NCBI GenBank assembly: GCA_017619655.1
Contig: JAFZRV010000013.1
Location: 1-42,937 of the forward strand
Source: Bacteroidales bacterium
GTDB taxonomy: Bacteria; Bacteroidota; Bacteroidia; Bacteroidales; UBA932
Direction: 5' to 3'
Length of the DNA stretch: 42,937 nucleotides
Under the pieces are notes generated by a model. The model searched no databases. It saw only the letters and a list, made by a program, of their open reading frames with translations, and was not told where the DNA came from. Each line of letters starts with the position of its first letter. Position 1 is the first letter of the stretch. Made by a program: the position numbers and the translations under genes. This document shows positions 7,252-25,402 of this stretch, one piece after another.

Positions 7252-7255
7252 CACT

Positions 7256-8818: not shown

Positions 8819-8830
8819 CGAGTACATTCT

Positions 8831-9697: not shown

Positions 9698-9757
9698 TGC
9701 TGGTGAGCAGTAAAGATAAGAATGGGGGAATTATGAGAAAAAAAAGTAATCAATAAC

Positions 9758-10930
9758 ATGAAAAAAGCATTCATTATTCTGAACTCAGTGCTCCTCGCGC
9801 TGTCATGCTGCGAGATAGAGGTAGTAAAGATCGTGGATCTTGCCACGCTCACAGCCGACTACGAAGCCCAGGACGGGGATATGCTCACAGGGATCATCTC
9901 CGGCAACTACAAGATTACCATCGCCGACGGCGCTACCGTGATGCTGAAGAATGCCGTCATCTACGGTGTGAACGACGATAAGTATGAATGGGCCGGTATC
10001 ACCCTCCTTGGAGATGCCACCCTTGTTCTTGAGGCTTCCAATATCGTGAGAGGTTTCGACGCCGGATATCCCGGCATCCTTGTTCCCAAAGGCAAGACGC
10101 TCACCATAACGGGGAACGGAAAACTGGATGTGAGCAGCAACGGATATGCCCCCGGAATCGGCGGTGATGACGATAACGGTGGCAATATTGTCATCCAGGG
10201 GGGCACCATCCGCGCTACAGGCGGGGATGGTGCCGCAGCTATCGGCTCCATACGTTTTAGAAGTTGTGGCGACATCACCATCAGCGGCGGGTCGGTAACT
10301 GCCATTGGGGGCGATGAAGGAGCCGGTATTGGAAGTGGCCTTGAAGGCTCGTGCGGAAACATCACCATCAGCGGCGGAACCGTCATAGCCGAATCGGTAG
10401 TTTCTGCGGCCGGCATCGGCTGCGGCCACTTGGCAACGTGCGGAAATATCTCCATCAGCGGAGGCGACGTCACCTCGCGGGGCGGAGATGATGCCGCCGG
10501 CATCGGCAGTGGCAGCGGAGAAGATGACGACGAAGAAGATGATGAAGAAGATGAGGACGAAGGCAATGCCACCTCCATTTGCGGCGACATCACCATCAGC
10601 GGCGGTACGGTAACGGTTCACGGCCACAGTATCATTGCCGCCGCCGCCATCGGCTCGGGTTGTAACGCCCGCTGCGGCAACATCCTCATCAGCGGAGGCA
10701 CGGTCACGGCCGAAGGCGGTTACAAATCGGCTGGAATAGGCACCTCGGAAAGAGGAAGCGTGGGCAACATTACCATCACCAGCGGCGTAACCCAGGTATC
10801 GGCCAAGAAATGGGATGAAAAGACGCCGCACAGCATCGGCGGCGGCGTGGACTACGCCAGTATCGGTACCGTGACCGTCGGCGGCAAAGTGGGTCCCGTG
10901 AGCGAAAGCCCGTTTGTGTATAAGCCGTAA
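9758..10930 (+). CDS. Repeat protein with predicted beta-helix fold, probable lipoprotein
   Basis: A 390-residue protein. Residues 1-17 form a short hydrophobic signal ending in LSCC, compatible with a loose Bacteroidota lipobox, so it is probably exported and lipid-anchored. Residues 50-140 are beta-rich. From about residue 142 to 335 there are six consecutive units of about 29 residues with the pattern C-G-(N/D)-I-T-I-S-G-G-T-V, a short loop, A-G-I-G-S-G; a seventh degenerate unit follows. Most units end in a Cys (170, 199, 228, 275, 306), which would stack as a ladder in a right-handed parallel beta-helix. The fourth unit carries an insert of thirteen consecutive Asp/Glu residues (255-267). 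Similar repeats occur in Bacteroidota and Firmicutes surface proteins annotated as carbohydrate-binding; the ligand is unknown. It stands 60 bases after the kinase gene and may have its own transcript. Confidence 0.8.
   Translation: MKKAFIILNSVLLALSCCEIEVVKIVDLATLTADYEAQDGDMLTGIISGNYKITIADGATVMLKNAVIYGVNDDKYEWAGITLLGDATLVLEASNIVRGFDAGYPGILVPKGKTLTITGNGKLDVSSNGYAPGIGGDDDNGGNIVIQGGTIRATGGDGAAAIGSIRFRSCGDITISGGSVTAIGGDEGAGIGSGLEGSCGNITISGGTVIAESVVSAAGIGCGHLATCGNISISGGDVTSRGGDDAAGIGSGSGEDDDEEDDEEDEDEGNATSICGDITISGGTVTVHGHSIIAAAAIGSGCNARCGNILISGGTVTAEGGYKSAGIGTSERGSVGNITITSGVTQVSAKKWDEKTPHSIGGGVDYASIGTVTVGGKVGPVSESPFVYKP
10181..10762 (+). repeat. Intragenic tandem repeat of about 87 bases (six units)
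   Basis: The DNA encoding residues 142-335 repeats with an 87-base period, recognisable from recurrent GGCGACATCACCATCAGCGG-like segments at about 10268, 10355, 10442, 10583 and 10676. One unit is enlarged by a GAN trinucleotide run (about 10519-10563) that encodes the acidic insert. Both elements are prone to slippage and recombination, so length variation between strains is likely. Confidence 0.75.
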
Positions 10931-11020
10931 TGTAATAGGCCACCAACGGCTCATCTTCGTGCCATCTCCGAAGGCATCGGCTTCCTTCCGGCCAGGTATG
11001 AAGTACTTTTGACATTTCCC

Positions 11021-11045
11021 AATCGTTGTAAACCTTGCAACGATT
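11021..11045. promoter_or_regulatory. 25-base palindrome overlapping the RhuM-gene promoter
   Basis: The arms AATCGTTGTAA (11021-11031) and TTGCAACGATT (11035-11045) match at ten of eleven positions around a 3-base spacer. The right arm overlaps the minus-33 TTTG at 11044-11047. The short spacer and lack of a T-run argue for a protein-binding operator rather than a terminator of the upstream gene. Confidence 0.5.
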
Positions 11046-11075
11046 TGCATTCACTGAGCTTTTGGGTTATCTTTG
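11044..11075 (+). promoter_or_regulatory. Bacteroidota promoter of the RhuM gene
   Basis: TTTG at 11044-11047, exactly 20 bases, then TATCTTTG at 11068-11075: a full match to the minus-33 and minus-7 consensus. The ATG follows at 11105, giving a leader of about 20 bases with GGAGG (11095-11099) as ribosome binding site. Confidence 0.75.
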
Positions 11076-11104
11076 TAGGTGCTCATCTTATTTGGAGGTA
11101 GTAT

Positions 11105-12085
11105 ATGGAAGACAATGGCAGCATAGTGATTTACGAATCGGAAGGAGGAGATGTCCGCTTGGATGTCCGGTTGGAGAACGGTACGGTGTGGCTGACGCAG
11201 CATCAAATGTCATTGCTGTATGGGAAAGCCGCGTCCACCATTAATGAGCATATAAGTGACATTTTTGCAGATGAAGAACTGTCTCCAGAGGCCTGTAGAA
11301 AGAAATTCGGAAATTCCGAATTTCAGCAGAAAGCGCCGTTCTACTATAATCTTGACTTGATTATAGCCGTCGGATTCCGTGTTCGTTCACGCAATGGTGT
11401 CATCTTTAGAAGATGGGCAGGAGAGCGCCTGAACGAGTATATCGTGAAGGGCTTCACCATGGATGATGAGCGGTTGAAGGAGATGGGCGGTGGCGGCTAT
11501 TGGAAAGAGCTCCTGAACCGCATCCGGGATATCCGTGCTTCCGAGAAGGTATTCTATCGGCAGGTTCTTGACATCTATGCCACCAGCGTAGACTATGATC
11601 CTAAAGCAGAGATTTCCATTGACTTTTTCAAAAAGGTTCAGAACAAAATTCACTACGCTGTGCACGGTCAGACTGCCGCTGAGGTGATCTATAATAGAGC
11701 AGATGCGGAGAAAGAATTCATGGGCTTAACCACCTTCAAAGGCGATAAGCCCCATCTCTCCGATGCTGTTGTGGCCAAGAATTATCTGACAGAAAAAGAA
11801 TTGCGATCTCTTGGGCAACTGGTTTCCGGTTATTTGGATTTTGCAGAACGGAAGGCCGAGCGCCATGAGTTTATGACCATGGCCGACTGGGCTGCTCACC
11901 TGGATAATGTCCTAACGATGAATGGCGAACATCTTCTCGTCGGCCCTGGCTCCGTCAGTCACAATCAGGCAATAACCAAAGCTACTGAGGAATACAAAAA
12001 GTACCAGCAGCGCACCCTCAGCGATGTAGAGAAATCCTATCTGGATACCATCAAACTTCTGGAAAGTAAAACGAATTATGGATAA
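11105..12085 (+). CDS. RhuM-family protein
   Basis: A 326-residue cytoplasmic protein of the RhuM family, named for a Salmonella pathogenicity-island gene. The N-terminal part (residues 10-110) contains the characteristic YESEGGDVRLDVRLENGTVW, TQHQMSLLYGK and NLDLIIAVGFRVRS segments, which resemble a winged-helix or antirepressor-like DNA-binding module; the C-terminal 200 residues are mainly helical with the F-K-K-V-Q-N-K-I-H-Y-A-V-H-G core. The biochemical role is not established; RhuM genes are commonly found on islands and near restriction or toxin systems. It has its own strong promoter and a ribosome binding site. Its last 8 bases overlap the start of the next gene, so those two are translationally coupled. 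Its base composition appears more AT-rich than its neighbours, consistent with horizontal transfer. Confidence 0.88.
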   Translation: MEDNGSIVIYESEGGDVRLDVRLENGTVWLTQHQMSLLYGKAASTINEHISDIFADEELSPEACRKKFGNSEFQQKAPFYYNLDLIIAVGFRVRSRNGVIFRRWAGERLNEYIVKGFTMDDERLKEMGGGGYWKELLNRIRDIRASEKVFYRQVLDIYATSVDYDPKAEISIDFFKKVQNKIHYAVHGQTAAEVIYNRADAEKEFMGLTTFKGDKPHLSDAVVAKNYLTEKELRSLGQLVSGYLDFAERKAERHEFMTMADWAAHLDNVLTMNGEHLLVGPGSVSHNQAITKATEEYKKYQQRTLSDVEKSYLDTIKLLESKTNYG

Positions 12086-12506
12086 CAAAGAGCTGCAAAA
12101 GACAGTCAACCCCATTTATCTGACCGCTAAATCTACTTTGGGCCTTCTGAAGAGGGCAGGGGATCCGGATGCCGTTGCCTTGATGCCTTATATCGCCTTA
12201 GATACAAGTCTGCAGGAGAAAGCCAAGGTACTTCCCGACTCTATCGGGCTCTGTTACAAGACTGCCCAGCTGGCCCGCTATGAAATATACAATACAGCTG
12301 CGCTTCAAAGCGGCGCTCCTGAAATGGGCGGCGGCGAGGAGGAGCTCGCGTTCATCCGTGCCATGGTGGGTGTCAGCAAAGAGAACTTTGAGAGCACCCT
12401 GGACTTCATTGATTCGGAGTACGGCAGCCTTTCCGCCTATCTGGAGAACGCACTTGGCTTTTCCGCACAGGATCAGGAGAAACTGCGCAGCAAACTTCTG
12501 AAGTAG
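12078..12506 (+). CDS. C-terminal fragment of a Y_phosphatase3-type tyrosine phosphatase, catalytic loop missing
   Basis: A 142-residue protein. Residues 85-141 (F-I-R-A-M-V-G-V, then T-L-D-F-I-D-S-E-Y-G-S-L-S-A-Y-L, ending L-R-S-K-L-L) closely match the C-terminal end of the Y_phosphatase3 family, for example Mycobacterium PtpB, where it follows the catalytic HCxxGKDRTG loop. That loop and the rest of the phosphatase domain are absent, and the first 65 residues do not resemble the family. The reading frame is intact, overlaps the RhuM gene by 8 bases and stops 2 bases before the next kinase gene. It may be a remnant rescued by fusion to a new start, or a noncatalytic small protein with an adopted role. 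Catalysis is not expected. Confidence 0.55.
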   Translation: MDNKELQKTVNPIYLTAKSTLGLLKRAGDPDAVALMPYIALDTSLQEKAKVLPDSIGLCYKTAQLARYEIYNTAALQSGAPEMGGGEEELAFIRAMVGVSKENFESTLDFIDSEYGSLSAYLENALGFSAQDQEKLRSKLLK

Positions 12507-12508
12507 CT

Positions 12509-13372
12509 ATGTCATTAAACCAGTATAAACAAATCAATCTTGCCGACTGGCAGCAGGTAGGTGAAGGCGGCAACGGGAAGACTTATGTCAACCCCGCCGA
12601 GCCCGACCTGATTCTGAAGGTGAACAATGAGCGCCTGAGTACCTTTGAAGCCGTCAAGCACGAATTCGACGTTTCTAAAGCAGTGGAAAGCCTAGGCCTT
12701 TCCTCGCCCAAGATGTATGAAATGGTCCGTGTGGGAGAAGCCTACGCCACCCTCTCCGAGCGCATCAAGGACAAGAAATCCCTCTCCCGTATCTGCCACG
12801 ACTCTCCGGAGCGTACTGAGGAAATGGCCCGGCTGCTGGCTGAGAAGGGAAAGGAGTTATTCGCAACGCCCTGCAATACGGACTTTTTCCCCAGCCGGAA
12901 GGAACAAGTCCTCTGGGCCATCGATCACGCCACCTTTGTGAACAAGAAAAACCGGGCGCTCATCCGCGCCTTTGCCGAAAGCATTCCCGAGAACACCCAC
13001 TGCGTCCACGGGGATTTCCAAACGGGCAACCTCATCCAGTCCGGGGACAAATACTATTGGATAGACCTGGACCGTTTCGCACACGGAGACCCCATGTTCG
13101 ACATCGGCCACCTCTTCCAAATCTGCTGGATTTATGCCCCCATGAAGCGGGTACAGGACCTGTTCCACATGACCCTGGAGCAGTTCCACCGCTTCTGGAA
13201 CGCCTTCGCCGAAGCTTATACCGGAAAGGCCGACCACGCCGGTTTCGACGCCCTTTCCGGCAAGTTCGCCTGCCTGGACGTCATCGTGCGCACCTACTTC
13301 ATCAAGCCCACTTTCCTGGAAAAACTCTTCTTCGGAATGTATGTCAGGAAACTTGTAAATGAGTACTATTGA
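12509..13372 (+). CDS. Second aminoglycoside-phosphotransferase-like kinase, TIGR02172-type
   Basis: A 287-residue kinase-like protein with GEGG at residues 18-21, the catalytic HGDFQTGN at 167-174 and the metal-binding Asp at 186 (WIDLDRF). The start MSLNQYKQINLADWQQ matches the layout of the paralog at 8831 (MGTYEKINLEDYIQ), and the two align over the full length, though with many differences. Substrate unknown. It sits 2 bases after the phosphatase remnant and 5 bases before the cyclohexadienyl-dehydratase-like gene, so RhuM, the remnant, this kinase and the following lipoprotein gene form one tight transcript. Confidence 0.82.
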   Translation: MSLNQYKQINLADWQQVGEGGNGKTYVNPAEPDLILKVNNERLSTFEAVKHEFDVSKAVESLGLSSPKMYEMVRVGEAYATLSERIKDKKSLSRICHDSPERTEEMARLLAEKGKELFATPCNTDFFPSRKEQVLWAIDHATFVNKKNRALIRAFAESIPENTHCVHGDFQTGNLIQSGDKYYWIDLDRFAHGDPMFDIGHLFQICWIYAPMKRVQDLFHMTLEQFHRFWNAFAEAYTGKADHAGFDALSGKFACLDVIVRTYFIKPTFLEKLFFGMYVRKLVNEYY

Positions 13373-13377
13373 TCATT

Positions 13378-14202
13378 ATGAAAAGACGAATATTCCTGTC
13401 AATTGTTACGCTTGCCTCACTGGCCCTGGTTGTCCTGGGCTGTGGCGTCTCATGCAGGACATTCCCTGCATCGACGACACCCAACGTCGACAAAATCCAG
13501 CAGCGAGGGGTTGTGCTTGTGGGCACAACCGGCGATTACCGGCCCCTCAGCTACAAGGAGCCCGATACCGGGGTTTACTGGGGCTTTGACCTGGAGGTGG
13601 CAGGGGCGATTGCCAAGAAATTGAACGTCACGGTCCGTTACGTTCCCACTTCGTGGCCCACCCTTACTGCCGACGTGCTGGCCGAGCCGCAGACCTTCGA
13701 CTTCGCCATCGGCGGCATCACCATCACGGACTCCCGCATGCAGACAATGGATATGTCCGAGGGTTACCTGGGCAACGGAAAAACCATCCTGTGCCGCAAA
13801 GAAGACGCCGGGAAATACACCTGCCAGGAAGACTTAAACCATCCGGAGGTGCGGGTTATGGTGAACCCCGGCGGCCTTAATGAGAAGTTCGCCAGGGCAA
13901 ACCTTCCCAACTGTACGCTCATCGTCTTCGACAAGAACGAAGAAATCCCCAATCAGGTAGCCGAGGGAAATGCCGACGTGATGATTACTGAAATCACTGA
14001 AGCTCCCTGGTATGTCCAGAATGACAGCAGGCTGGCCGCTCCGCTCCTGGACAAGCCTTTCACCCGCGGCCAGATTGGCGTGCTGATGCGGAAAGGACAG
14101 GAAGACCTCATGGATGTGGTGAATACCACCATCCGTCAGATGAAGGCCGACGGCACCCTGAAGGCTTTGCATGAGAAATACGGCCTTCAATATGCATATT
14201 AA
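13378..14202 (+). CDS. Lipoprotein of the cyclohexadienyl dehydratase (PheC) / solute-binding fold
   Basis: A 274-residue protein with a lipoprotein signal (lipobox VLGC, Cys22) and a type-3 solute-binding-protein fold. It resembles PheC cyclohexadienyl dehydratase more than ordinary amino-acid receptors: VGTTGDYRPLSY, the VPTSWPTL segment, IGGITI, VMVNPGGLNEKFARANL and VMITEITEA all line up with the Pseudomonas enzyme, including the Glu (residue 208) corresponding to the dehydratase catalytic Glu. PheC converts arogenate or prephenate to phenylalanine or phenylpyruvate in the periplasm. No ABC permease or ATPase gene is nearby, which also favours an enzyme. The ATG at 13378 is chosen because it gives a clean signal peptide; a TTG three codons upstream overlaps the previous stop. 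A receptor role remains possible. Confidence 0.75.
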   Translation: MKRRIFLSIVTLASLALVVLGCGVSCRTFPASTTPNVDKIQQRGVVLVGTTGDYRPLSYKEPDTGVYWGFDLEVAGAIAKKLNVTVRYVPTSWPTLTADVLAEPQTFDFAIGGITITDSRMQTMDMSEGYLGNGKTILCRKEDAGKYTCQEDLNHPEVRVMVNPGGLNEKFARANLPNCTLIVFDKNEEIPNQVAEGNADVMITEITEAPWYVQNDSRLAAPLLDKPFTRGQIGVLMRKGQEDLMDVVNTTIRQMKADGTLKALHEKYGLQYAY

Positions 14203-14252
14203 ACTGGCTGCGTTTTTTGATTATCATTGTAAGTACTCATTTTGTTTGTAAT

Positions 14253-14915
14253 ATGAAGATAAAGCCGACTTTGCTCTTTGGGGTACTTCTTTTGATTTTG
14301 ACTGCCTGCAAAAGCCATAATGTCCATGTTGAACCCGCTGCCGCTGATACGATACCGGCTGTAAATCAAGTTATAGAAGAACTCAAGGGCCGGGACGTGG
14401 TCCTTTTCGTGGCCGACGAGGATGAGATTTCGCCTGACGAAGTGCCTTTCCCTGTAGTGTTTACCGGGATGGGGAAGATGCGGATGTTCAGTGCCCTGGT
14501 GAAGTGGCACGAGGCCTTGCCCGAGGGATGTAGCCCCGTTGTCCTGAACATCGGCAGTGCCGGGTCGGCCAAATATCCCATCGGCACCATCGTGCCCTGC
14601 ACCCGCTTCATCAATGGCGGATGCGAACTCGTCGACGATTGCATTGAAGTATCTGGCGACGGCGCCAGCGTCTTCTCCGGAGATTACTTCATGAGCACCC
14701 AGACTTTCAGCCCGGAGCAGGTGAAGCAGCTGTCGCAGCAGTACGACCTCTTTGACATGGAGGCCTACGCCGTGGCCCAGTTCTGCAGGATGTACGATAT
14801 CCCGTTCTACTGCCTCAAGGCTGTCTCCGACAACCTGGACGGCAACCTCAAGGACTGGCGGGGCATCCTTGCCGACATCCGCGCCCGGTTTACGGAGTTG
14901 CTGAACCTTCCCTAA
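14253..14915 (+). CDS. MTA/SAH-nucleosidase-like lipoprotein
   Basis: A 220-residue protein with a lipoprotein signal (MKIKPTLLF to LTAC, Cys19) followed by a purine-nucleoside-phosphorylase/MTAN fold. Family marks are V-F-T-G-M-G-K, L-N-I-G-S-A-G-S-A, then F-D-M-E-A-Y-A-V-A-Q-F with the substrate-ribose Met-Glu pair, and A-V-S-D-N with the catalytic Asp. The enzymes cleave the glycosidic bond of 5'-methylthioadenosine, S-adenosylhomocysteine or related nucleosides and normally work in the cytoplasm, so the lipid anchor is unusual. The ATG at 14253 is preferred over a start 12 codons upstream because it places the signal at the N-terminus. It begins 50 bases after the PheC-like gene. Substrate uncertain. 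Confidence 0.78.
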   Translation: MKIKPTLLFGVLLLILTACKSHNVHVEPAAADTIPAVNQVIEELKGRDVVLFVADEDEISPDEVPFPVVFTGMGKMRMFSALVKWHEALPEGCSPVVLNIGSAGSAKYPIGTIVPCTRFINGGCELVDDCIEVSGDGASVFSGDYFMSTQTFSPEQVKQLSQQYDLFDMEAYAVAQFCRMYDIPFYCLKAVSDNLDGNLKDWRGILADIRARFTELLNLP

Positions 14916-14928
14916 TACTTAAGCAATA

Positions 14929-15255
14929 ATGATAGAAATAACTATAAGCGTGGGCTTGAATGATGCCGTCACGAAGCAGCAGGAGCATCCGACGAAGACG
15001 TACGTTGCTATAATGAAGAACGTATGTAAAAGTTACCATGTTGCTTTCTCGTTTATCGTTTCAGAAGGTGGTTATTTTCACGATAATGGTGATTATACAC
15101 AGGAAAAGACCCTTGTCCTTTGTTTGCTTGACCCTAAGGAAGGTGTCGTGGACAGCATTGCAAGAGATCTCTGCGCCTTTTTCCATCAAGAATCCGTCCT
15201 GATAACAGAGAGTAAGGTCAGGGCATATTATATAAAAGAAGAACGACTAGACTAG
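14929..15255 (+). CDS. Small protein resembling DUF3574
   Basis: A 108-residue protein without signal peptide. The order [30 protein letters not shown], a following TLVLCLLD strand and the FHQESVL motif resembles the DUF3574 family, whose conserved end is F-x-Q-E-S-V-L. The resemblance is from memory and only moderate. Known DUF3574 proteins are mostly short exported proteins of unknown function; this one looks cytoplasmic. It lies 13 bases after the nucleosidase gene and 1 base before the phosphoglycerate mutase gene, so it belongs to the same transcript. Confidence 0.6.
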
Positions 15256-15256
15256 A

Positions 15257-16888
15257 ATGAAAACAGTTTTCCGCCTGCTTCTTTACACAGTCCTCGTTTG
15301 CTGCGGGGTGTTCTCGGCGTGTACGATAGAGGATGAGCCCGGAGTCGACGGCAAGAAAGCCCTGTTGATCATTCTCGACGGGTGGGGACTTGGTGACAAA
15401 AGCAAGGGTGACTTGATTACGCAGACCCCTACGCCTTACATGGACTACCTGAAGGTCAACTATCCGCACTCCGAACTACAGGCTTCTGGCGAGTATGTGG
15501 GTTTGCCCGACGGGCAGATGGGCAACTCGGAGACGGGCCACCTCAATATCGGTGCCGGGCGCGTGGTATATCAGGATTTGGCGAAAATCAACCGCGCCAT
15601 TGCCGACAATTCCATCCTGGAGAACCCGGAAATCAAGCAGGCCTTCAGCTATGCAAAGACCAGCGGCAAGCGCCTGCACCTGATGGGCCTGACTTCCACG
15701 GGCGGCGTTCACTCTTCCTTAGACCACCTCCTGAAACTCATCGACATCGCCAAGGCGTACGACATTCAGGAATGTTACGTACATTGCTTTATGGACGGCC
15801 GGGATACCGACCCCCGGTCGGGCAAGGGCTTCATCGCCGACTTGCAGAAGCACATGGATGAGGTGGGCACAGGCGTTGTCGCAACCATCATCGGCCGCTA
15901 TTACGCCATGGACCGCGACAAGCACTGGGACCGCATCAAGCTGGCCTACGACCTGCTCGTCAACGGCCAGGGCCGTGCGGTGACCGACATGGTGGCGGGC
16001 GTACAATCGTGCTATGACAGCCATACCGAGGAGCACAAGAACACCGACGAGTTCATGGAGCCCCTCGTCAACAGCCAGGTTGACGGGCGCATCCGGGAAG
16101 GCGACGTGGTCATTTTCTTTAATTTCCGCAGCGATCGCGCCAAAGAGCTGACCACCGTGCTCACGCAGCAGGACATGCCGGAGCAGGGGATGAAGACCAT
16201 CCCGAATCTCCAATACTACTGCATGACGCCCTATGATGAATCCTTCGCGGGGGTTCACGTCATCTTCCCCAAAGAGAACGTGGTGAACACCCTGGGCGAA
16301 TTCATCGCCAGCAAGGGCCTGAAGCAGCTGCACGTCGCCGAGACAGAGAAGTATGCTCACGTGACATACTTCCTCAATGGCGGGCGGGAAGAACCCTTCA
16401 AGGGGGAAGACCGCATCCTGGTGAATTCCCCTCAGGTGGCCACCTACGACCTGCAGCCCGAGATGTCTGCTTACGAAGTGACGGACAAGCTGGTTGAGGC
16501 GCTCGAAACCGGCAAATACCACTGGATCGTGGTGAACTTCGCCAACGCCGACATGGTGGGCCACACGGGTGTTTACACGGCCATCGGGTCTGCCGTGAGA
16601 GTGATTGACGAGTGCCTGCTGGAAGTGGTGGAAACCGCCAGGACGATGGGCTATGAAATCATCATCACCGCCGACCACGGCAATGCCGACCATGCCCTCA
16701 ATGAAGACGGCTCGCCCAACACGGCCCACTCCACGAACCCCGTTCCTTTCATCTACGTGACAGAGAACAAGGATGCGAAGGTTCAGAACGGCGCCCTGGC
16801 CGACGTAGCCCCCTCCATCCTCCACATCATGGGCCTGGAACAACCCGCGGAAATGACCGGCCAGTGCCTGATCGTCGCTTCTCTTTGA
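15257..16888 (+). CDS. gpmI: 2,3-bisphosphoglycerate-independent phosphoglycerate mutase with lipoprotein signal
   Basis: A 543-residue protein in which residues 30-543 are a complete cofactor-independent phosphoglycerate mutase (interconverts 3- and 2-phosphoglycerate). Metal and catalytic residues are all visible: Asp41 in ILDGWG, the phospho-Ser91 in [24 protein letters not shown] and TADHGNADH. Residue 93 is Thr where NSEVGH is usual. The N-terminal 22 residues ([22 protein letters not shown]) form a lipoprotein signal ending FSAC, and the next residues TIEDE are acidic, like the Bacteroidota export signal for surface lipoproteins. No in-frame Met precedes the enzyme domain, so the leader cannot be dropped by choosing another ATG. 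Glycolytic mutases are normally cytosolic and about 505-515 residues. The 3' end overlaps the convergent hipA gene by 62 bases. Confidence 0.88.
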
Positions 16889-18152
16889 TGACAGCGGTGA
16901 TATGGCTGACTTCGTCGGAAGGAACACCTTCCTCGCGTGCATATCCGGCAAAATGCGAGACGGCTTCATCTACCTGCTCCAGAATCTCTTTGGGATGCCG
17001 AATGCTTTGGGCTGCGGCTATTTCAAAGAGATCCTTGTCGGTAATATTGTCGCGTTTCCCGTTGATGGTCAGTTGGTGCGCATTCGCCCATTGGCCTTTG
17101 GGATTGTAACTGAAACCCATATCATAGGCGGGCGCCAAATGCCAGGTCCCATCTCTTTCCATTAAAAACGAAATGTTCTTTGTGTGATCATCCATATTGA
17201 CGCTCAATACGTTGAACAGCATTCTCCGGAACATTTCTTCGCTTTGGATGTAATCCAGATTCAGCATCCGCATGGTCCTGAAAACCTGTTCATAGGAATA
17301 GGCGCCCGGCTGCTGGAAATCATAATGGGCCAGACCGCAGAGGGTTTGCATGTGTATCTTCTGGCCGCCTCTTCTGTCGAACCTTTTTGTCATGAAGTGC
17401 GCCCTGTCGTTTTCGCGGATAAGCCGGCATTCTGTCATCTGAATTCCGGCATCCTTCACGCAACGGGAGAACGCATACTCGATTCGTCCGTAGTTGGCCG
17501 GATTGACCGGGCGGGCGTGAGAGTCAAACCCGTCAAACTTGAGCAGCCAATAATCAAAGCCTTCCGGTGCCGGAACCTGCCCTGACCGGATTTCTCCCGT
17601 GGTATCGTTCAGCGCGATGACGGCCTTGGCGCGCTGTCCGCCGGCAGATGTGCCGATTTTAAGGATGTCAAGAATCGCTTGTTCCTTGTTTTCAAAACAA
17701 GATTTGAATCCCTCTTTTGACGAAAGGGCTTGCCTGGCCGTCTCTACCAACGCCTCCAGTTCAATCAAAGAACTCTCATCCATGTATGTTTCGCGAGCAG
17801 GCTGGTATTCCAGAGCGCCCATGCAACGTTGTCCTTGGAAAGAGAGCTTCTCCAAAGCGTTGGCCTGGCCCTCGTCCCGCGAATTCAGCGTGAGCCACTG
17901 GTTAAGGAGCGCCTGGCCAAAACTGTCCGGCAAGGAGTCTGCAATCATCCCCGGCAGGCCATTGAAGGTGTCGCGACTGAGGTTGGGAAAGCTATAAACC
18001 CGTCTTCCGTCAGTTGGCATCATAAGCGGGGAGGGCTGAAGGCCACTGGAACGAAATGCATCGGTATACTCAAAATCACAGTAGCCGTTTTCCAGCAGGC
18101 GGAGCGCCCCGATGGGTTTACCATAGAGGAGTACTGTTATTGTCTGCATCAT
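16827..18152 (-). CDS. hipA: HipA-family toxin kinase
   Basis: A 441-residue full-length HipA-type serine/threonine kinase. The Gly/Ser-rich loop [12 protein letters not shown] (residues 167-178) corresponds to the Ser-containing loop of E. coli HipA; catalytic and metal residues are Asp321/322 in NMDDHTKN and Asp344 in PAYDMG. HipA toxins phosphorylate glutamyl- or tryptophanyl-tRNA synthetase and induce dormancy. Two adjacent ATGs (18152 and 18149) are possible starts and both overlap the 3' end of hipB, as in coupled hipBA operons. The last 14 or so residues ([14 protein letters not shown]) are read from the antisense strand of the gpmI end and are not typical of the family, so the C-terminus has probably been extended by the junction. 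Confidence 0.9.
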
Positions 18153-18465
18153 CTTTTCTTGCTTTTGATGCACGTTTGCGTGTTTTCATCCCGGCTTCCA
18201 GCTTCTGGTATTCCAACGGAGAAATTTCTTTCTCTTGAAAGAAAGGGGAAAGCGCATCCAGCCTGTCTAAAATACGCAGCACTTTTATCAGGTTCTGCAT
18301 CGAGGTTCCTTTCCCGTTCTCTATCTGATAAATGGTTGCCAGACTCAACTGCGTCTTTTCCGCCAAATGGGCCTGAGACAGGTCCATATCCAGCCTCCAG
18401 GCTTTGACCTGTTCCCCCATTCTCTTTAGGATGGCACTGTCCGTCATCCATTTTATGTTCTCCAT
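18118..18465 (-). CDS. hipB: HipB-like XRE-family antitoxin
   Basis: A 115-residue DNA-binding protein with a helix-turn-helix of the XRE/Cro type at about residues 16-70 (L-S-Q-A-H-L-A-E-K-T-Q-L-S, then I-Y-Q-I-E-N-G-K-G). The C-terminal part is basic and probably disordered, typical of the segment that contacts HipA. It would neutralise the toxin and repress its own operon. The gene overlaps hipA by about 35 bases. Its start codon at 18465 lies inside the left arm of a 14-base inverted repeat, and a second in-frame ATG six codons in (18447) is better spaced from a GGAG, so the start is uncertain. Confidence 0.87.
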   Translation of the reverse strand: MENIKWMTDSAILKRMGEQVKAWRLDMDLSQAHLAEKTQLSLATIYQIENGKGTSMQNLIKVLRILDRLDALSPFFQEKEISPLEYQKLEAGMKTRKRASKARKDDADNNSTPLW

Positions 18466-18531
18466 AACTATTGGAATTTCTATGTATTGAAAGCAAATAT
18501 AGTCAATAACATTTAATATTCCAATAGTTAT
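18464..18531 (-). promoter_or_regulatory. hipBA operator and promoter region
   Basis: ATAACTATTGGAAT (18464-18477) and ATTCCAATAGTTAT (18518-18531) are perfect 14-base inverted arms 40 bases apart. Between them, on the minus strand, is TATATTTG (plus-strand CAAATATA at 18494-18501), a minus-7 box. The TATTGG/CCAATA cores parallel the paired half-sites bound by HipB-type antitoxins. Binding at both arms would cover the start codon and the upstream promoter region. Confidence 0.65.
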
Positions 18532-18543
18532 AGACTATTTTTG

Positions 18544-18684
18544 TTACCCAAGGATCAGTTTCACGCGGAAGCCCCGTTCGGTGGGCTCTTCCACTACTTG
18601 CTGGCATTGGGCGGAAAGGGCGCTGCGTTGCTCGGCTATCAGGTTATTGGTAAAGCTCTCGGCAAGGGAAGTGAAGAAGTCCAT
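18544..18684 (-). CDS. Possible 46-residue protein downstream of the cupin gene
   Basis: An open frame of 46 codons starts with ATG at 18684, 7 bases after the cupin stop. The product begins MDFFTSLAESF and ends VKLILG; residues 3-35 look amphipathic and helical, and codon use resembles real coding. I recognise no family. No good ribosome binding site is visible, so translation would rely on coupling to the cupin gene. It could be a remnant or chance frame. Confidence 0.4.
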   Translation of the reverse strand: MDFFTSLAESFTNNLIAEQRSALSAQCQQVVEEPTERGFRVKLILG

Positions 18685-18691
18685 AGCTTAC

Positions 18692-19066
18692 TTATTCCAG
18701 CGGGATCTCCGGGTGCTGCACCGAAATGGGCAGGCCTTTCTGCGAGACGTAGAACATGCAGAGGACGACGGGTTTCGTGCCGCGGTTCTCGCCGCGGTGG
18801 ATGGTGCCCACCATCTCCACGAGGGCCTCGCCCTCATGAAAGACCCGCTCGGTGCCGTCCGGGCAGGCGATGGTCAGATCGCCCTGCACCACGATGCCGT
18901 AGTTCATCACGGGGTGGTGGTGCCAGCCCAGTTTCTTTCCGGCGGGTATCTCGTATTTCATGGCCACCAGTTCGGGGCGGCCCTGCGGGTAATCGGGCAT
19001 TTCCACGCCGTCCCAACTCTGGCTGGAACGGATCAGTTCGGTGGACGTAACGGTCGTTTGTTTCAT
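18692..19066 (-). CDS. Cupin-domain protein
   Basis: A 124-residue single-domain cupin. The first cupin motif is GWHHHPVMNYGIVVQGD (three His plus the later Glu-like position) and the second is G-T-I-H-R-G-E-N-R-G. Small cupins of this type bind a metal and may be isomerases, dioxygenases or sensors; the substrate is unknown. No signal peptide. The gene follows the tRNA operon terminator on the same strand, with the start 30 bases downstream of the hairpin, and may share an operon with the small frame after it. Confidence 0.85.
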   Translation of the reverse strand: MKQTTVTSTELIRSSQSWDGVEMPDYPQGRPELVAMKYEIPAGKKLGWHHHPVMNYGIVVQGDLTIACPDGTERVFHEGEALVEMVGTIHRGENRGTKPVVLCMFYVSQKGLPISVQHPEIPLE

Positions 19067-19096
19067 GGCTGGATGGTTTTCGGTTCATTGACAAAA

Positions 19097-19122
19097 GAGG
19101 CACTCACTTTCGTAAGTGCCTC
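19097..19122 (-). terminator. Intrinsic terminator of the tRNA operon
   Basis: GAGGCACTCAC (19097-19107) pairs with GTAAGTGCCTC (19112-19122) through eleven bases with one mismatch or wobble around a TTTC loop. On the minus strand it is followed by a T run (AAAA at 19093-19096 on the plus strand), directly after the 3' end of tRNA-Met. Confidence 0.7.
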
Positions 19123-19128
19123 ATTTTC

Positions 19129-19205
19129 TGGTAGCGGGACCCAGGATTGAACTGGGGACCTCATGATTATGAATCATGCGCTCTAACCAGCTGAGCTATC
19201 CCGCC
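19129..19205 (-). tRNA. tRNA-Met(CAT)
   Basis: The 77 bases on the minus strand fold as a complete tRNA: acceptor GGCGGGA with TCCCGCT (G1-U72 wobble), D loop with AGCTGGTTAGA, anticodon stem CATGA/TCATG around TTCATAA, and a TTCAATC T loop. The 3' CCA is encoded (19129-19131). The anticodon CAT means methionine, most likely elongator; an Ile tRNA with a modified CAT anticodon cannot be excluded from sequence. Confidence 0.93.
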
Positions 19206-19215
19206 TTATGATACC

Positions 19216-19303
19216 GGGGCACTGCCCCGGACCCCTCGCTCCGGCCTTGCTATTGCTCGGGCTAACCCTGCTCGGCCTACGCTAGCGGCTGATGCCGCTT
19301 TGA
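19216..19303. repeat. tRNA-associated structured repeat, copy 1
   Basis: About 88 bases beginning GGGGCACTGCCCC (a 5-base stem with a 3-base loop) and ending GCTAGCGGCTGATGCCGC, where AGCGGC and GCCGCT form a second hairpin. It lies between tRNA-Met and tRNA-Gln and is closely matched by the copy at 19393-19482. It contains no open frame of note. Confidence 0.8.
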
Positions 19304-19315
19304 GCGCTAGTTTTG

Positions 19316-19386
19316 TTGAGGTAGACGGATTCGAACCGCCACTAAGAGGACCAGAATCTCTTGTGCTGCCATTACACCATACCTCA
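19316..19386 (-). tRNA. tRNA-Gln(CTG)
   Basis: Seventy-one bases on the minus strand with acceptor TGAGGTA/TACCTCA (the U1-A72 pair is typical of glutamine tRNA), a D loop with GTAATGGCAG, anticodon loop TTCTGGT (CTG) and T loop TTCGAAT. The anticodon stem has one A-C mismatch next to the loop. CCA is not encoded. It is the upstream member of the tRNA operon. Confidence 0.9.
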
Positions 19387-19392
19387 GTGACT

Positions 19393-19482
19393 GGGGCGCT
19401 GCCCCAAACCCCGCCGCTACGGCCTTGCTATTGCGCAGGGCTAACCCTGCCCGGCCTTCGCTAGCGGCTGATGCCGCTTTGA
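19393..19482. repeat. tRNA-associated structured repeat, copy 2
   Basis: About 90 bases beginning GGGGCGCTGCCCC and ending GCTAGCGGCTGATGCCGCTT, roughly 85 percent like copy 1 by eye, with the same two hairpins. It occupies the leader of the tRNA transcript between the promoter and tRNA-Gln. Differences between copies partly keep the hairpins (loop ACT to GCT). Confidence 0.8.
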
Positions 19483-19491
19483 TTGGGACTG

Positions 19492-19521
19492 CAAAGGTAG
19501 GAAAAGAAATCGGGTTTGCAA
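19492..19521 (-). promoter_or_regulatory. Promoter of the tRNA-Gln/tRNA-Met operon
   Basis: On the minus strand TTG (plus CAA 19519-19521), 19 bases, then TACCTTTG (plus CAAAGGTA 19492-19499), matching minus-33 and minus-7 elements. Transcription would run through repeat 2, tRNA-Gln, repeat 1 and tRNA-Met to the hairpin at 19097. Confidence 0.65.
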
Positions 19522-19528
19522 CAAAAAC

Positions 19529-20299
19529 TTAATTTTTTTTGTAGATATCCTCGATGACCAGGCCGGCGAGGGTCATGCCGAAGAGGGCGGTGACATGGGC
19601 CGTGGTGCCGTTGATCTGGGCCTTGCGGCCGTCCCACTCGCTGTTGGTCGCGTCGGCGGCGAGGGCGGTGCCGCGGTTGGGAAGCACTTCCTCGTCGTAC
19701 ACGCAGCGGAACTTGTGCCCGGGATAGGTGTGGTTCTGTTTGTATTTCTTGCGGATGGCTGCGCCGAGCGGACAGCCGCGCACGTTCCAGAATTCCGCCA
19801 CCTTCACGCCCTGCGGATTGACTTTCAGCGCGGCGCCCATCGAGCTGAAGAAGACCGCCGGGGTGCGGGTGCCGCGCAGGATCAGGTCGGATTTTTCCTT
19901 GAGCGAGTCGATGGCGTCGAGGATGTAATCGTAGCTTTCCAGCTGGAAGGAAGCGGCGGTGTCCGCGTTGTAGGGCTGCTGCAGCGCGGTGATCTCCGCG
20001 TGCGGGTTGATCTCGAGCAGGCGCGCCTTGAGCGCTTCGACCTTCACCTGCCCGACGGTGCGGGCGGTGGCCATGAGCTGGCGGTTGATGTTGCTGGTGC
20101 TCACGCAGTCGGAGTCCACGAGGGTCAGGTGCGTGATGCCGGAACGGACCAGGCCTTCGGCACACCAGCTGCCCACGCCGCCCACGCCGAAGAGGATGAC
20201 GCGGACGCGTCCCAGCGCCGCCATGACCGCGTCTCCCACCAGAAGTTTCGTGCGGTTGAAGGCGGGATCGTCAACAGGGGAATAGGGGATTTCGGACAT
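19529..20299 (-). CDS. tcdA: tRNA threonylcarbamoyladenosine dehydratase
   Basis: A 256-residue ThiF/E1-superfamily protein. The ATP-binding GVGGVGSW loop is near residues 37-44, followed by the LVDSDCVSTSNINRQ segment typical of E1-like enzymes, and conserved Arg/Asp residues further on. TcdA (CsdL) uses ATP to cyclise threonylcarbamoyl-A37 in tRNAs reading ANN codons. The long frame continues upstream into the metX region, but the ATG at 20299 (MSEIPYSPV) is right because it fits the family length and follows the regulator stop by 2 bases. It is the downstream partner in a two-gene operon with the Lrp-type regulator. Confidence 0.9.
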   Translation of the reverse strand: MSEIPYSPVDDPAFNRTKLLVGDAVMAALGRVRVILFGVGGVGSWCAEGLVRSGITHLTLVDSDCVSTSNINRQLMATARTVGQVKVEALKARLLEINPHAEITALQQPYNADTAASFQLESYDYILDAIDSLKEKSDLILRGTRTPAVFFSSMGAALKVNPQGVKVAEFWNVRGCPLGAAIRKKYKQNHTYPGHKFRCVYDEEVLPNRGTALAADATNSEWDGRKAQINGTTAHVTALFGMTLAGLVIEDIYKKN

Positions 20300-20301
20300 G
20301 G

Positions 20302-20772
20302 CTACAGATAAAAACCGTGGTTTTGCTTGATTTCCTTCATGACGAAGGTGGAGAGGATGGAACCGATGGACTCGATGGTTCCCAGCGTGTTGATGACGAA
20401 ATCGTTGTAGTAGCGCATGTTGGGCGCGTTGATGGTGAGCAGGTAGTCGAACTCGCCCGCCACGTTGTAGCAGGCCGTCACCTGCGGTACTTTCTGGATC
20501 ACCTTCACGAAGTCGTTGGCTACGTCGCGGCTCATCTGTTTCAGCTTCACGCTGCAGAACACCAGGAAGCCCTGGTTGAGTTTCTCCGCGTCGAGGATGG
20601 CGACGTATTTCTTGATGTAGCCTTCCCGTTCGAGGCGCTTGAGGCGCTCGAAGACCGGGGTTGTGGAGAGATTGACCTTGGCGGCCAGTTCCTTGGTGGT
20701 GATGCGTGCGTTGTCCTGCAGGGTGCGCAGGATTTTCAGGTCGGTTTCGTCGAGTCGGTTGTCGGGCGTCAT
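20302..20772 (-). CDS. Lrp/AsnC-family transcriptional regulator
   Basis: A 156-residue regulator. The N-terminal helix-turn-helix (LDETDLKILRTLQDN, then TTKELAAKVNLSTTPVFERLKRL) is followed by the RAM ligand-binding domain (residues about 65-150) with G-E-F-D-Y-L-L and a conserved S-T-F-V-M-K. The family binds amino acids and regulates amino-acid metabolism. It is divergent from metX-thrA-asd with 160 bases between start codons, so it may control that operon and itself. The frame extends 17 codons upstream, but ATG at 20772 (MTPDNRLDETD) fits the family. Confidence 0.9.
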   Translation of the reverse strand: MTPDNRLDETDLKILRTLQDNARITTKELAAKVNLSTTPVFERLKRLEREGYIKKYVAILDAEKLNQGFLVFCSVKLKQMSRDVANDFVKVIQKVPQVTACYNVAGEFDYLLTINAPNMRYYNDFVINTLGTIESIGSILSTFVMKEIKQNHGFYL

Positions 20773-20881
20773 GGGAGGCAGAATGATATTCCGAAAAAGG
20801 CCCCGTCGGGAGCCTGTTTCCATAGATTAATTTTACTTCTTTCTGCAAAATTAGAAAAAATATCCAAATTTCTTTCCTGCC

Positions 20882-20912
20882 TTGTAATATTTTTCCAGAA
20901 TTCTCAATTTTG
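20882..20912 (+). promoter_or_regulatory. Candidate promoter of metX-thrA-asd
   Basis: TTG at 20882-20884 and CAATTTTG at 20905-20912 with 20 bases between, one base off the TAnnTTTG box. The region is AT-rich and lies between the divergent Lrp-type gene and metX. The leader to the ATG at 20933 would be about 14 bases. Confidence 0.4.
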
Positions 20913-20932
20913 CATCGTAAAAACCGTTGAAG

Positions 20933-21952
20933 ATGCAGCGACACTCCCTGATCCTGGACGAGCCTTTTCCCCTGGAAGCCGGCGGACAGCTGCCCCGGCT
21001 GGAACTGGTGTACCACACCTCGCCGCGGGCATACCGGCCCGGCGACCGGGTGGTCTGGATCTGCCACGCGCTGACCGCTTCTTCCGATGCGGAAGACTGG
21101 TGGCCGGGGCTCGTGGGGCCGGGGAAGGAGTTCGACACGGAGCGCGACTTCGTGGTGTGCGTCAATATCCTGGGTTCGCCCTACGGCTCCAGCGGCCCCG
21201 CCTCGGTCAACCCCTCGACGGGAAAACCCTGGCTGCTGGGCTTCCCGGACGTGACCATCCGCGACTTCGTGCGGGCTTCCATCCTGGTGCGCAGGCACCT
21301 GGGCATCGAGGCCATCGACCTGCTGGCCGGCGCGTCGACGGGCGGTTTCCAGGTGCTGGAGTGGTGCGTGATGGAACCGGAGGTCATCCGGCGTGCCGCC
21401 ATCATCGCCACGGATGCGCGCGTGACCCCGTACCTGACCGCCTATGATACCGCGCAGCGGATGGCGCTGGAAGCCGATCCTTCGTTCCGCGAGTCGAACA
21501 GCCTCCGCGGCGGGGAAGCGGGACTCCGTTGCGCCCGGGCCATCGCCATGATCTCCTACCGCAGCTACGAGGGCTACAACAACACGCAGCCCGAGCCCGA
21601 CGCCGACACCCTGTTCGCGCAGCGCTGCGCCTCGTACCAGCGCTATCAGGGCAAAAAGCTCTCCGATCGTTTCGACGCCTACAGCTATGCCAGCCTGATC
21701 CACGCCTGCGAGAGCAACAACCTGGGCCGTGGCCGCGGCGGCGTGGAAAAGGCGCTGGGCACCATCCAGGCGCGTTGCGCCGTGGTCTGCATCGACAGCG
21801 ACAGCCTCTTTCCGCCCCGGGCGATGCGGACGCTGGCCGCCGGCATTCCCCATGCGGCCTACTATGAAATCGCCTCGCCCTTCGGCCACGACGGCTTTCT
21901 TTTGGAAAATGAACAATTAAGCACGATCTTTACTTCGCTATGCAAGTCCTGA
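20933..21952 (+). CDS. metX: Homoserine O-acetyltransferase-family enzyme
   Basis: A 339-residue alpha/beta hydrolase of the MetX type, which transfers an acyl group from acyl-CoA to homoserine for methionine synthesis. The nucleophile is Ser135 in GASTGG, where the family more often has GGSxGG; an Asp in the D-S-D-S-L-F-P-P segment and His in F-G-H-D-G-F complete the triad. The family marks W-I-C-H-A-L-T-A-S and N-I-L-G-S-P-Y-G-S-S-G-P are present. Start: ATG 20933, two codons after a TTG. Its last 13 bases overlap the start of thrA, indicating translational coupling. Acetyl versus succinyl preference is not certain from sequence. Confidence 0.88.
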   Translation: MQRHSLILDEPFPLEAGGQLPRLELVYHTSPRAYRPGDRVVWICHALTASSDAEDWWPGLVGPGKEFDTERDFVVCVNILGSPYGSSGPASVNPSTGKPWLLGFPDVTIRDFVRASILVRRHLGIEAIDLLAGASTGGFQVLEWCVMEPEVIRRAAIIATDARVTPYLTAYDTAQRMALEADPSFRESNSLRGGEAGLRCARAIAMISYRSYEGYNNTQPEPDADTLFAQRCASYQRYQGKKLSDRFDAYSYASLIHACESNNLGRGRGGVEKALGTIQARCAVVCIDSDSLFPPRAMRTLAAGIPHAAYYEIASPFGHDGFLLENEQLSTIFTSLCKS

Positions 21953-24360
21953 AATTCGGAGGTACGTCGGTGGCCGATGCGGCTGCCATGACCCGCGTGG
22001 TCGACATCGTCACCGCGGCGGTCGAGCGCGACCGGACCATCCTGGTCTGTTCAGCCATCAGCCGCTGCACCGATACCCTGATTGAAATCGGCCATCGGGC
22101 CGCCCGCCGCGACGACAGCTACCGCACGCTCATCGACCAGCTGCAGCAGCGCCACGAGGCGATCGTCCAGGAGCTTCTGGTTCCCGAGCGCCAGGCGGAG
22201 GCCAACGCCCAGGTGCGCACGCTCTTCGATTCGCTGCGCAGCATCGCGCAGGGCGTCTGCCTGGTGGGCGAATTGAGCCCGGCCAGCCTCGATGCCATCG
22301 AGAGCTTCGGAGAACTCCTCTCCACCCGCATCCTGGCCATCCGCTTCGCCCAGACCGGCATTCCGCTCAAATGGCTCGATGCCCGCGAACTGATCCGCAC
22401 CGAGCGGGTGAGCGGGCGCAGCGTCGTGGTTCCCGACGTCACGAACCAGCGCATCGTCGAGGCGGTGGAGCACAACCCCCTGGTCTCGCTCTTCATCGTA
22501 CCCGGATTCATCGCTTCCGACCGCGAAGGCCGCACCACGACGCTGGGCCGCGGCGGTTCCGACTATACGGCGGCGCTCCTGGCCGTCGGCATCAAGGCCC
22601 GCCTCGTGGAAATCTGGACCGACGTGCCCGGCATGATGACCGCCAATCCGAAGAGCGTGCCGACCGCCCGCACCATCCGCCACATCTCCTACCGGGCGGC
22701 GCTCGAGCTCTCGCATTTCGGTGCCAAGGTCATCTATCCGCCGACCATCCAGCCCGTCGTGTCGGAAGGCATCCCCATTTATGTGAAGAACACCTTCGAT
22801 CCCGCCGCCTTCGGCACGCTGATCGAGAAGAATCCGCCCCGCAGCCGCGACAGCCTCACCGGCATCACCAATTCCGACGACATAGCGCTCCTCTCGCTCG
22901 AAGGGAGCGGCATGGTGGGCATCCCGGGCTTCTCGAGCCGGCTCTTCGATACGCTGACGCGCGAAGACATCAATATCATCCTGATCACGCAGGCCTCCTC
23001 GGTGCACACCATGTGCATCGCCGTGTCGGAAAAAGATGCGGAACGGGCCAAGCGCGCCGCCGACAGCTGCTTCGCCTATGAGATCAGCCTGGGCAAGCTC
23101 AACCCCCTGAAAGTGGAGAAGGGCTGGTCCATCGTCTGCCTGGTGGGCGACAACGTCATCGGCCAGAGCGGCGCTACGGGCCGCATGCTGGCCGCCCTGG
23201 GCGCGCACGGCATCCAGGTCCGGGCCACGGCGCAGGGTTCTTCGGAGCGCAATATCTCGGTGATCGTGCCCTCGGCTTCGGTGGAAGACGCCATCCGGCA
23301 CATCCACAACGAGTTTTTCGACAAGCGCAACGAGCAGGTGGTCAACCTCTTCGTCACGGGCTACGGCACGGTGGGAAAAGCGCTGGTCGACATGGTGGCC
23401 ACGCAGGCCGACGCCATTGCGGAACGGACCGGCAAGCGGCTGGTGCTCTGCGGACTGGCGAACAGCCGGCGCTTCGTGCTCGATCCGGAAGGCCTGGACG
23501 CTTCCCAGGCGGCCGCCCTGCTGGCGGAAGGCCGTCCCTCGACCGACGACGCCTGGTTCGGCGCCCTGGCCGGACTTTCGCTGGAACATCCTGTGTTTGT
23601 GGATTGTACAGCCAGCAGCGACGTGGCTTGCCGTTATCGGCAGCTGCTGCAGCGCGGCTACCATGTGGTGGCCTGCAACAAGATCGCCTTCTCGGCACCC
23701 GGCAACCCGCTGCCGGCCCTGCGCTCCGCCGCCCGCTCCGGCGGCGTGACGCTGCGGTATGAGACGACCGTGGGCGCTTCGCTGCCCGTGCTGGAATCCG
23801 TTTCCCGCATCGTGGCTGGCGGCGACCGGCTGCAGGCCGTCGAGGCCGTGCTGTCCGGGACCCTGGCCTGGCTTTTCGACCGCTACGACGGCGGTCGCGA
23901 CGGGGTGGATTTCGCCTCGCTGGTGGAGCAGGCGCGAGTGGCCGGTTACACGGAGCCCGATCCGGCCATCGACCTGAGCGGCCGCGACGTGCTGCGCAAG
24001 CTCCTGATCCTGGGCCGCGAAGCGGGGATTCCGCTCGAGGAATCCGATGTCGAACAGACGCCGCTGCCGGCGGTCGGCGATGAAAGCGCCTTCGCCGCGC
24101 TGCATGCCGAGGCCGTACGCCAGGGCGGTAAGCTGCGCTATGTCGCTTCGCTGGTGGCGGATGCATCGGCGCCCAAGGGCTGGCAGGCGCGCATCGGCCT
24201 GCAGACGGTCGGGCCGGACAGTCCGCTGTACGCCCTCCGCGGCACGGACAACTGCGTGCTGTTCCATACCGCCGATTATGCCTCGCCGCTGGTCATCCAG
24301 GGCGCGGGCGCGGGAGCCCGGATCACGGCTTCCGGATTGTTGAACGATATACTCTTGTAA
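21940..24360 (+). CDS. thrA: Bifunctional aspartate kinase / homoserine dehydrogenase I
   Basis: An 806-residue fused enzyme. The aspartate kinase domain spans about 1-290 (KFGGTS at 5-10), two ACT regulatory subdomains about 300-460, and homoserine dehydrogenase from about 465 with the dinucleotide loop GYGTVG at 474-479 and the V-A-C-N-K and ETTVGASLP motifs further on. It performs the first and third steps of the aspartate family route, and the ACT region usually gives threonine feedback. Length is close to the 820 residues of E. coli ThrA. It starts inside metX and is followed 4 bases later by asd, so the three form one operon that supplies homoserine for methionine and threonine. Confidence 0.96.
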   Translation: MQVLKFGGTSVADAAAMTRVVDIVTAAVERDRTILVCSAISRCTDTLIEIGHRAARRDDSYRTLIDQLQQRHEAIVQELLVPERQAEANAQVRTLFDSLRSIAQGVCLVGELSPASLDAIESFGELLSTRILAIRFAQTGIPLKWLDARELIRTERVSGRSVVVPDVTNQRIVEAVEHNPLVSLFIVPGFIASDREGRTTTLGRGGSDYTAALLAVGIKARLVEIWTDVPGMMTANPKSVPTARTIRHISYRAALELSHFGAKVIYPPTIQPVVSEGIPIYVKNTFDPAAFGTLIEKNPPRSRDSLTGITNSDDIALLSLEGSGMVGIPGFSSRLFDTLTREDINIILITQASSVHTMCIAVSEKDAERAKRAADSCFAYEISLGKLNPLKVEKGWSIVCLVGDNVIGQSGATGRMLAALGAHGIQVRATAQGSSERNISVIVPSASVEDAIRHIHNEFFDKRNEQVVNLFVTGYGTVGKALVDMVATQADAIAERTGKRLVLCGLANSRRFVLDPEGLDASQAAALLAEGRPSTDDAWFGALAGLSLEHPVFVDCTASSDVACRYRQLLQRGYHVVACNKIAFSAPGNPLPALRSAARSGGVTLRYETTVGASLPVLESVSRIVAGGDRLQAVEAVLSGTLAWLFDRYDGGRDGVDFASLVEQARVAGYTEPDPAIDLSGRDVLRKLLILGREAGIPLEESDVEQTPLPAVGDESAFAALHAEAVRQGGKLRYVASLVADASAPKGWQARIGLQTVGPDSPLYALRGTDNCVLFHTADYASPLVIQGAGAGARITASGLLNDILL

Positions 24361-24364
24361 GGAT

Positions 24365-25353
<989 letters not shown>

Positions 25354-25363
<10 letters not shown>

Positions 25364-25402
25364 TCCGTATCTTTTTATAACTTTGGGAAAAATATCCCAA
25401 AG
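25354..25402 (+). promoter_or_regulatory. Promoter and perfect hairpin before the M48 protease
   Basis: TTG at 25354-25356, 21 bases, TAACTTTG at 25378-25385, a full minus-7 match. A perfect 8-base inverted repeat, CTTTGGGA (25381-25388) and TCCCAAAG (25395-25402), starts inside the minus-7 box and ends 3 bases before the start codon at 25406. It could act as an operator or a leader hairpin. Confidence 0.6.

Follow-up and report, generated by a model that had tools for sequence, protein, structure and literature searches.

The window, that is, the whole 42,937-nucleotide stretch of a Bacteroidales genome analysed here, contains a lipoprotein-type cofactor-independent phosphoglycerate mutase (iPGM) gene on the forward strand at 15257..16888, which encodes 543 residues from an ATG start. 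The first 22 residues (15257..15322) form a putative lipoprotein signal peptide with a basic n-region, a hydrophobic core and the lipobox FSAC, which ends at Cys22, and the same feature is found in relatives. It is followed by a linker (residues 23–32, [10 protein letters not shown]; 15323..15352) beginning with TIEDE, so that three acidic residues occupy +4..+6 within the +2..+6 region. The enzyme domain comprises residues 33–540 (15353..16876). The NCBIfam equivalog TIGR01307 scores 664 bits on residues 33–539 against a curated cut-off of 331, Pfam Metalloenzyme and iPGM_N also match, and residues 33–540 align with solved iPGMs such as 1EJJ. The protein keeps Ser91, [16 protein letters not shown], and the complete set of nucleophile and two-metal ligands is present (D41, S91, D432, H436, D473, H474, and H491). 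The motif NSETGH (15524..15541), containing the nucleophile Ser91 and Thr93, takes the place of the expected NSEVGH. The start codons among codons 1–70 are ATG1, GTG18, TTG37, TTG53, and ATG62, and GTG18 (15308..15310) is the sole alternative start upstream of the domain. These features agree with the original prediction of a complete iPGM behind a lipoprotein signal, with a Thr in the catalytic motif and no Met between signal and domain.

Upstream on the same strand lie the genes for a TIGR02172-family APH-like kinase (12509..13372), recognized by family profiles, and for two proteins assigned by Pfam and the lipoprotein rule, namely an SBP_bac_3 solute-binding protein with a lipobox (13369..14202) and a nucleosidase-fold (PNP_UDP_1) protein with its own lipobox LTAC (14217..14915). 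The latter adds to the enzyme families that are usually cytosolic but here bear an export signal. A DUF3574-like gene (14929..15255, forward strand), which scores 20 bits and does not reach the Pfam cut-off of 25, ends 1 nt before the iPGM gene. The ORF at 12078–12506 is chimeric, with a methyltransferase-like/STAS part (77% over 83 aa) and a Y_phosphatase3 part (78% over 59 aa), an arrangement that a deletion joining two genes of the neighbour pool described below would produce. Beside the iPGM gene, the opposite strand carries a HipA-like gene (43 bits, NCBIfam cut-off 401) and an HTH_3 gene at 16827–18465, as well as a Cupin_2 gene at 18692..19066, whose relatives recur at other loci of this iPGM in the locus comparison. 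The GC content of the window is about 0.54 at 1–20000 and about 0.62 at 20000–38000, and the iPGM gene lies in the left part.

Relatives of the same form (lipo-iPGMs) were collected by a pattern scan for NSETGH; because Thr is required for a match, any lipo form with Val would go undetected. Within the order, the pattern occurs in 2 of 393 genomes, that of the window and G481, whose protein is 76% identical to the window's and has its own lipobox. The scan of genome contigs returned at least 111 stretches. Among the matches listed, 33 are Bacteroidales loci with 68–84% identity, bringing the form to at least 34 genomes with G481, and the other 78 are distant (38–57% identical where matched) and by title mostly from candidate-phylum bacteria. 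The titles of the 33 Bacteroidales loci state a ruminant source in seven cases and carry the label RUG, which we take to denote rumen uncultured genomes, in 17, the remaining nine giving neither. The motif is likewise rare in the family of G598, where it occurs in four of 399 genomes, G598 counted. For the named relatives, the sequences come from uncultured genomes or MAGs. The exported gene is broken at L206 and L243, in G586, where a frameshift follows close after the signal, and in G610.

The genome of the window (1.40 Mb, 19 contigs, 60.65% complete, 0.24% contamination) encodes a second iPGM on another contig (C8), which is 57% identical, signal-less and of the NSEVGH type; the search for such a copy was the key test of the original prediction. 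No dPGM was found in this 60.65% complete genome. Among the 34 other lipo-form genomes collected, 28 also possess a signal-less iPGM. In each of the 28 genomes that matched iPGM at least twice, a copy of the signal-less type is present, 56–82% identical, and its motif, readable in 26 of them, is NSEVGH in all 26. The remaining six genomes contain dPGM in four cases (359–362 bits) and apgM in one (478 bits), according to searches that covered ten genomes; no separate PGM was found in the sixth, G600, completeness figures existing for the window's genome and G481 only. A separate PGM is therefore found in 34 of 35 lipo-form genomes, the window's included, with signal status read on the iPGM copies, which indicates that the exported iPGM is an addition and not the housekeeping gene. 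In the window's own family, 167 of 199 genomes match the window protein (P0001), and among the matches listed none exceeds 67% identity except the window's own copy. The 29 family loci inspected (L003–L031) are NSEVGH forms and by eye lack a lipoprotein extension.

The two iPGMs might also derive from different organisms through a misbinned contig. The incompleteness and fragmentation of the assembly would fit this explanation, as would the GC step along the window and an 806-aa neighbour protein that is well matched in only five of 20 other same-genus genomes. However, those five matches are full length and 58–67% identical, the contamination estimate is low at the value given above, and lipo and signal-less copies occur together in 28 other genomes. 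We thus regard misbinning as highly unlikely.

A lipobox-type Cys is present in all 30 unbroken N-termini (the window and 29 relatives, with start codons of the relatives assigned by hand). It is located at position 18–32 behind a hydrophobic stretch, 10–17 residues ahead of the domain. A strict lipoprotein rule is passed by 23 of the 29 intact N-termini of relatives and failed by six, versus none of the 28 signal-less paralogues listed, among which three N-termini could not be read (Fisher p = 1.6e-10, with 0/27 used for the paralogues and the relatives being mutually non-independent). According to the available text of PMC5080379, the surface lipoproteins of Bacteroidota have an export signal (LES) of acidic residues just past the Cys. 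The window's protein is like these lipoproteins, its lipobox Cys being followed by acidic residues, whereas the members of the clade vary: two or more acidic residues at +2..+6 were found in 11 of 31 N-termini, one in nine and none in 11. Given the missing acidic residues in these 11, the published signal fits the window and not the whole clade, and the surface-export signal proposed originally is only partly supported.

The signals appear to be exchanged between near-identical enzymes. Among ten pairs with a domain DNA identity of at least 98%, the signals are 60–74% identical in five and 82–99% identical in the other five, compared with a baseline of 48% for shuffled signals. For instance, G598 and G600 share 98.6% of the domain DNA with a signal identity of 61%, and G588 and G604 share 98.9% with a signal identity of 64%. 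The occurrence of different signals on near-identical enzymes in half of the pairs suggests selection for export, and the exchange suggests how a cytosolic protein can turn into an exported one. Moreover, the 121-nt signal segment of the G596 gene was found at 22 places in 11 of 14 genomes, 11 of them iPGM genes or pieces and 11 non-iPGM. Among the non-iPGM matches, a nucleoside hydrolase agrees at 95% over 110 nt and a solute-binding protein at 91% over 117 nt; a HAD phosphatase (74% over 81 nt) and a DUF3089 protein (86% over 50 nt) match less well. The segment is matched best in G596, G598, and G600, which are closely related. The one control signal run, from another G598 lipoprotein, matches itself only. 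The window's own signal has no shared-DNA partner among the lipo and iPGM loci compared. We tentatively propose, as one possibility, that in rumen-type Bacteroidales a recombining lipoprotein-signal segment of about 100–120 bp is copied before enzymes that are otherwise cytosolic (iPGM, nucleoside hydrolase, cupin, HAD phosphatase, and esterase), making outer-membrane lipoproteins and an exported salvage metabolism, with iPGM as the clearest case. In the literature, as far as its text was available, nothing was found on signal-peptide shuffling in Bacteroidetes lipoproteins.

The N-terminal data also bear on the reading that the protein is an ordinary cytosolic iPGM, translated from GTG18 or later, and that the apparent signal is merely upstream sequence. 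The GTG at codon 18 and a domain that is a perfectly good iPGM would suit this reading, but it leaves unexplained the lipobox-type Cys in every unbroken N-terminus, the exchanged signals in five of ten pairs, the separate PGM in nearly all of the genomes and the absence of such an extension from the signal-less paralogues (read by eye). A start-site artefact behind the window's signal is unlikely, and the cytosolic reading as a whole is very improbable. Export of the lipo-iPGM, as predicted from its sequence, is well supported.

The active site is strongly conserved. Of 22 positions checked, 20 are identical across the 33 lipo rows, including the metal, nucleophile, and substrate positions except D12, which 31 of the 33 rows retain; the other two are taken to be the frameshifted row and a truncated one. 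The metal and nucleophile positions were assigned from what we take to be the numbering of the Bacillus enzyme. The substrate residues, which we assume to be H123, R153, D154, R185, R191, R261, R264, and K336 in 1EJJ, are kept in all 33 lipo rows. The assigned metal and nucleophile positions agree with the ligand list of the C. elegans iPGM in the accessible part of PMC5382265. The median dN/dS is 0.108 (range 0.03–0.24) over 387 of 528 lipo pairs, which are non-independent. This conserved active site speaks for a catalytic role. Compared with cofactor-independent PGM (TIGR01307; 1EJJ/1O98), the window's form has the same whole domain, nucleophile Ser, and metal and substrate residues, and differs in the added lipoprotein signal and linker, in being additional to another PGM, and in a Thr that replaces Val two residues past the nucleophile. 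The lipo-iPGM is a known enzyme in a new form.

This Thr, at position 64 in 1EJJ numbering (Thr93 in the window), is found in 33 of 33 lipo rows; all 58 signal-less rows that could be read have Val instead. By the criterion applied, it is the only fixed change that the signal-less G606 sister lacks, a result that is partly circular since the rows were sampled by Thr. L242 and L248, second copies obtained by protein search and not by the pattern, contain NSETGH too. Distant iPGMs from other phyla likewise have Thr here, with no evident signal, and together with the Thr-based collection of relatives this weakens Thr93 as a mark of export. An exported, catalytic protein in which Thr93 brings about a changed reaction, making it a phosphatase or directing it to a different phosphoester, would be in line with the Thr/Val partition and with the signal-bearing phosphatase-like proteins and PTP-like phytase at some lipo loci. 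However, the Thr fixation arises partly by construction, only L242 and L248 being free of the bias (both Thr), the distant Thr-bearing iPGMs lack an evident signal, and all substrate ligands are kept, and a changed reaction is rather unlikely.

Another explanation is that the protein is exported and non-enzymatic, serving as a moonlighting adhesin or binding protein on the iPGM fold. The available portion of PMC5962675 describes GpmA and other glycolytic enzymes as surface proteins with a dual location or a moonlighting function, and the text available from PMC8980031 lists iPGM in a P. intermedia secretome. The lipo-iPGM is alike in being a glycolytic enzyme predicted outside the cytosol. In contrast to the dual-location enzymes described in that portion of PMC5962675, here a separate paralogue bears the signal, whereas a moonlighting enzyme is a housekeeping protein without one; the lipo-iPGM has a signal and is accompanied by a separate PGM. 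In addition, the checked catalytic residues are kept throughout the clade with a dN/dS of about 0.1, and pure binding would not need them. This explanation is unlikely. The moonlighting role raised in the original prediction has little support. The same is true of the new substrate, since conservation extends to all substrate and metal residues examined.

The tree contained 33 lipo rows from 32 genomes, one of which has two copies, with fragmented copies excluded. All 33 lie on one side of a branch with support 100/99, recovered in 100% of 200 bootstrap trees. The lipo clade adjoins the signal-less NSEVGH copy of G606, within Bacteroidaceae/Prevotellaceae-type iPGMs, and the own-family signal-less copies sit elsewhere. 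The clade is monophyletic in this tree, compatible with its having arisen once from a cytosolic iPGM of the Bacteroidaceae/Prevotellaceae type. The close sister, the second copy of G606, makes location, the Val-to-Thr change, and activity separable. The 11 lipo rows with an own-family-type other copy (labelled by hand) require three changes on the tree and are together in 0% of bootstraps, and this scatter points to horizontal spread. At the sequence level, the patchy distribution of the lipo form is at odds with the cytosolic-copy tree; misbinning may contribute in single MAGs. Plasmid or phage carriage was rejected: 44 plasmid and 22 phage records match, at best 71% and 68%, and the best plasmid record is a plain gpmI amid housekeeping genes. 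Only short, imperfect repeats were found around the window cluster. The iPGM paralogues of Foster et al. 2010 (PMC2964296) are alike in the second iPGM gene and lateral transfer, as far as the accessible text goes; its abstract terms iPGM paralogues rare, and the words 'signal peptide' and 'secreted' do not occur in the main text available.

No conserved operon partner or fixed neighbour of the lipo-iPGM was found across the lipo loci. The neighbourhoods vary, and a common pool of accessory and exported proteins recurs in them: a cupin at seven of 20 lipo loci (one a 33-aa piece) versus none of 26 signal-less iPGM loci (p = 0.003), and a TIGR02172-type kinase at six of 20 (three at 30–34% identity) versus none of 26 (p = 0.01), with the source locus removed and the p values uncorrected for 15 families. 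The enrichment is biased upward because the family set was chosen from lipo loci. Signal-less loci, too, contain two of these 15 families, SpoIIE at 2/26 and esterase at 1/26. Other pool members at lipo loci are nucleoside hydrolases, Y_phosphatase3, one PTP-like phytase, FGE-like lipoproteins, and SBP_bac_3. This recurring pool suggests an exported salvage role. Lipoproteins in general are not significantly in excess near the lipo-iPGM (21/207 vs 13/227, p = 0.11), and no phosphoglycerate transporter was found among the annotated neighbours.

Taken together, the protein is probably an outer-membrane lipoprotein iPGM that acts on phosphoglycerates outside the cytosol and has been spread horizontally. 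A cytosolic iPGM would have been converted to a lipoprotein, lipidated at Cys22 and anchored in what is probably the outer membrane, exposed either to the periplasm or to the exterior. There it may function as a metal-dependent phosphoglycerate phosphotransferase needing neither ATP nor a diffusible cofactor, and would interconvert 2- and 3-phosphoglycerate from lysed plant or microbial cells. Alternatively, it might dephosphorylate 2-/3-phosphoglycerate via leakage of the phosphoserine intermediate; the solvent-inaccessible active site that iPGM assembles, described in the accessible part of PMC5382265, disfavours such leaky phosphatase action. The lipoprotein iPGM would then be part of an exported salvage repertoire with nucleoside hydrolases, phosphatases, and a phytase-like protein. 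The second complete copy of a glycolytic enzyme with an export tag in these gut relatives of Bacteroides suggests that a housekeeping enzyme was recruited outside the cell interior, and the relatives make it a replicated case of a central glycolytic enzyme apparently rebuilt as an envelope lipoprotein. No report of an exported iPGM was found in the available text of the literature on PGM with lipoprotein, signal peptide, surface or rumen export.

No second enolase, as a candidate exported copy, was found in 12 lipo-iPGM genomes: one enolase is present in six, and none was detected in the other six (G590, G598, G605, G612, G613, and G588). All 14 control genomes gave an enolase match. The idea that the exported iPGM requires the loss of enolase was rejected, since the window's genome and G481 both have the gene. 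Glycolysis without enolase is an open question in the accessible text of PMC11026938. The six genomes with undetected enolase reflect a known puzzle of rumen bacteria, for which we claim no causal link to the exported iPGM; enolase loss in rumen Prevotella and Butyrivibrio has been published (PMC6118326, in the part available).
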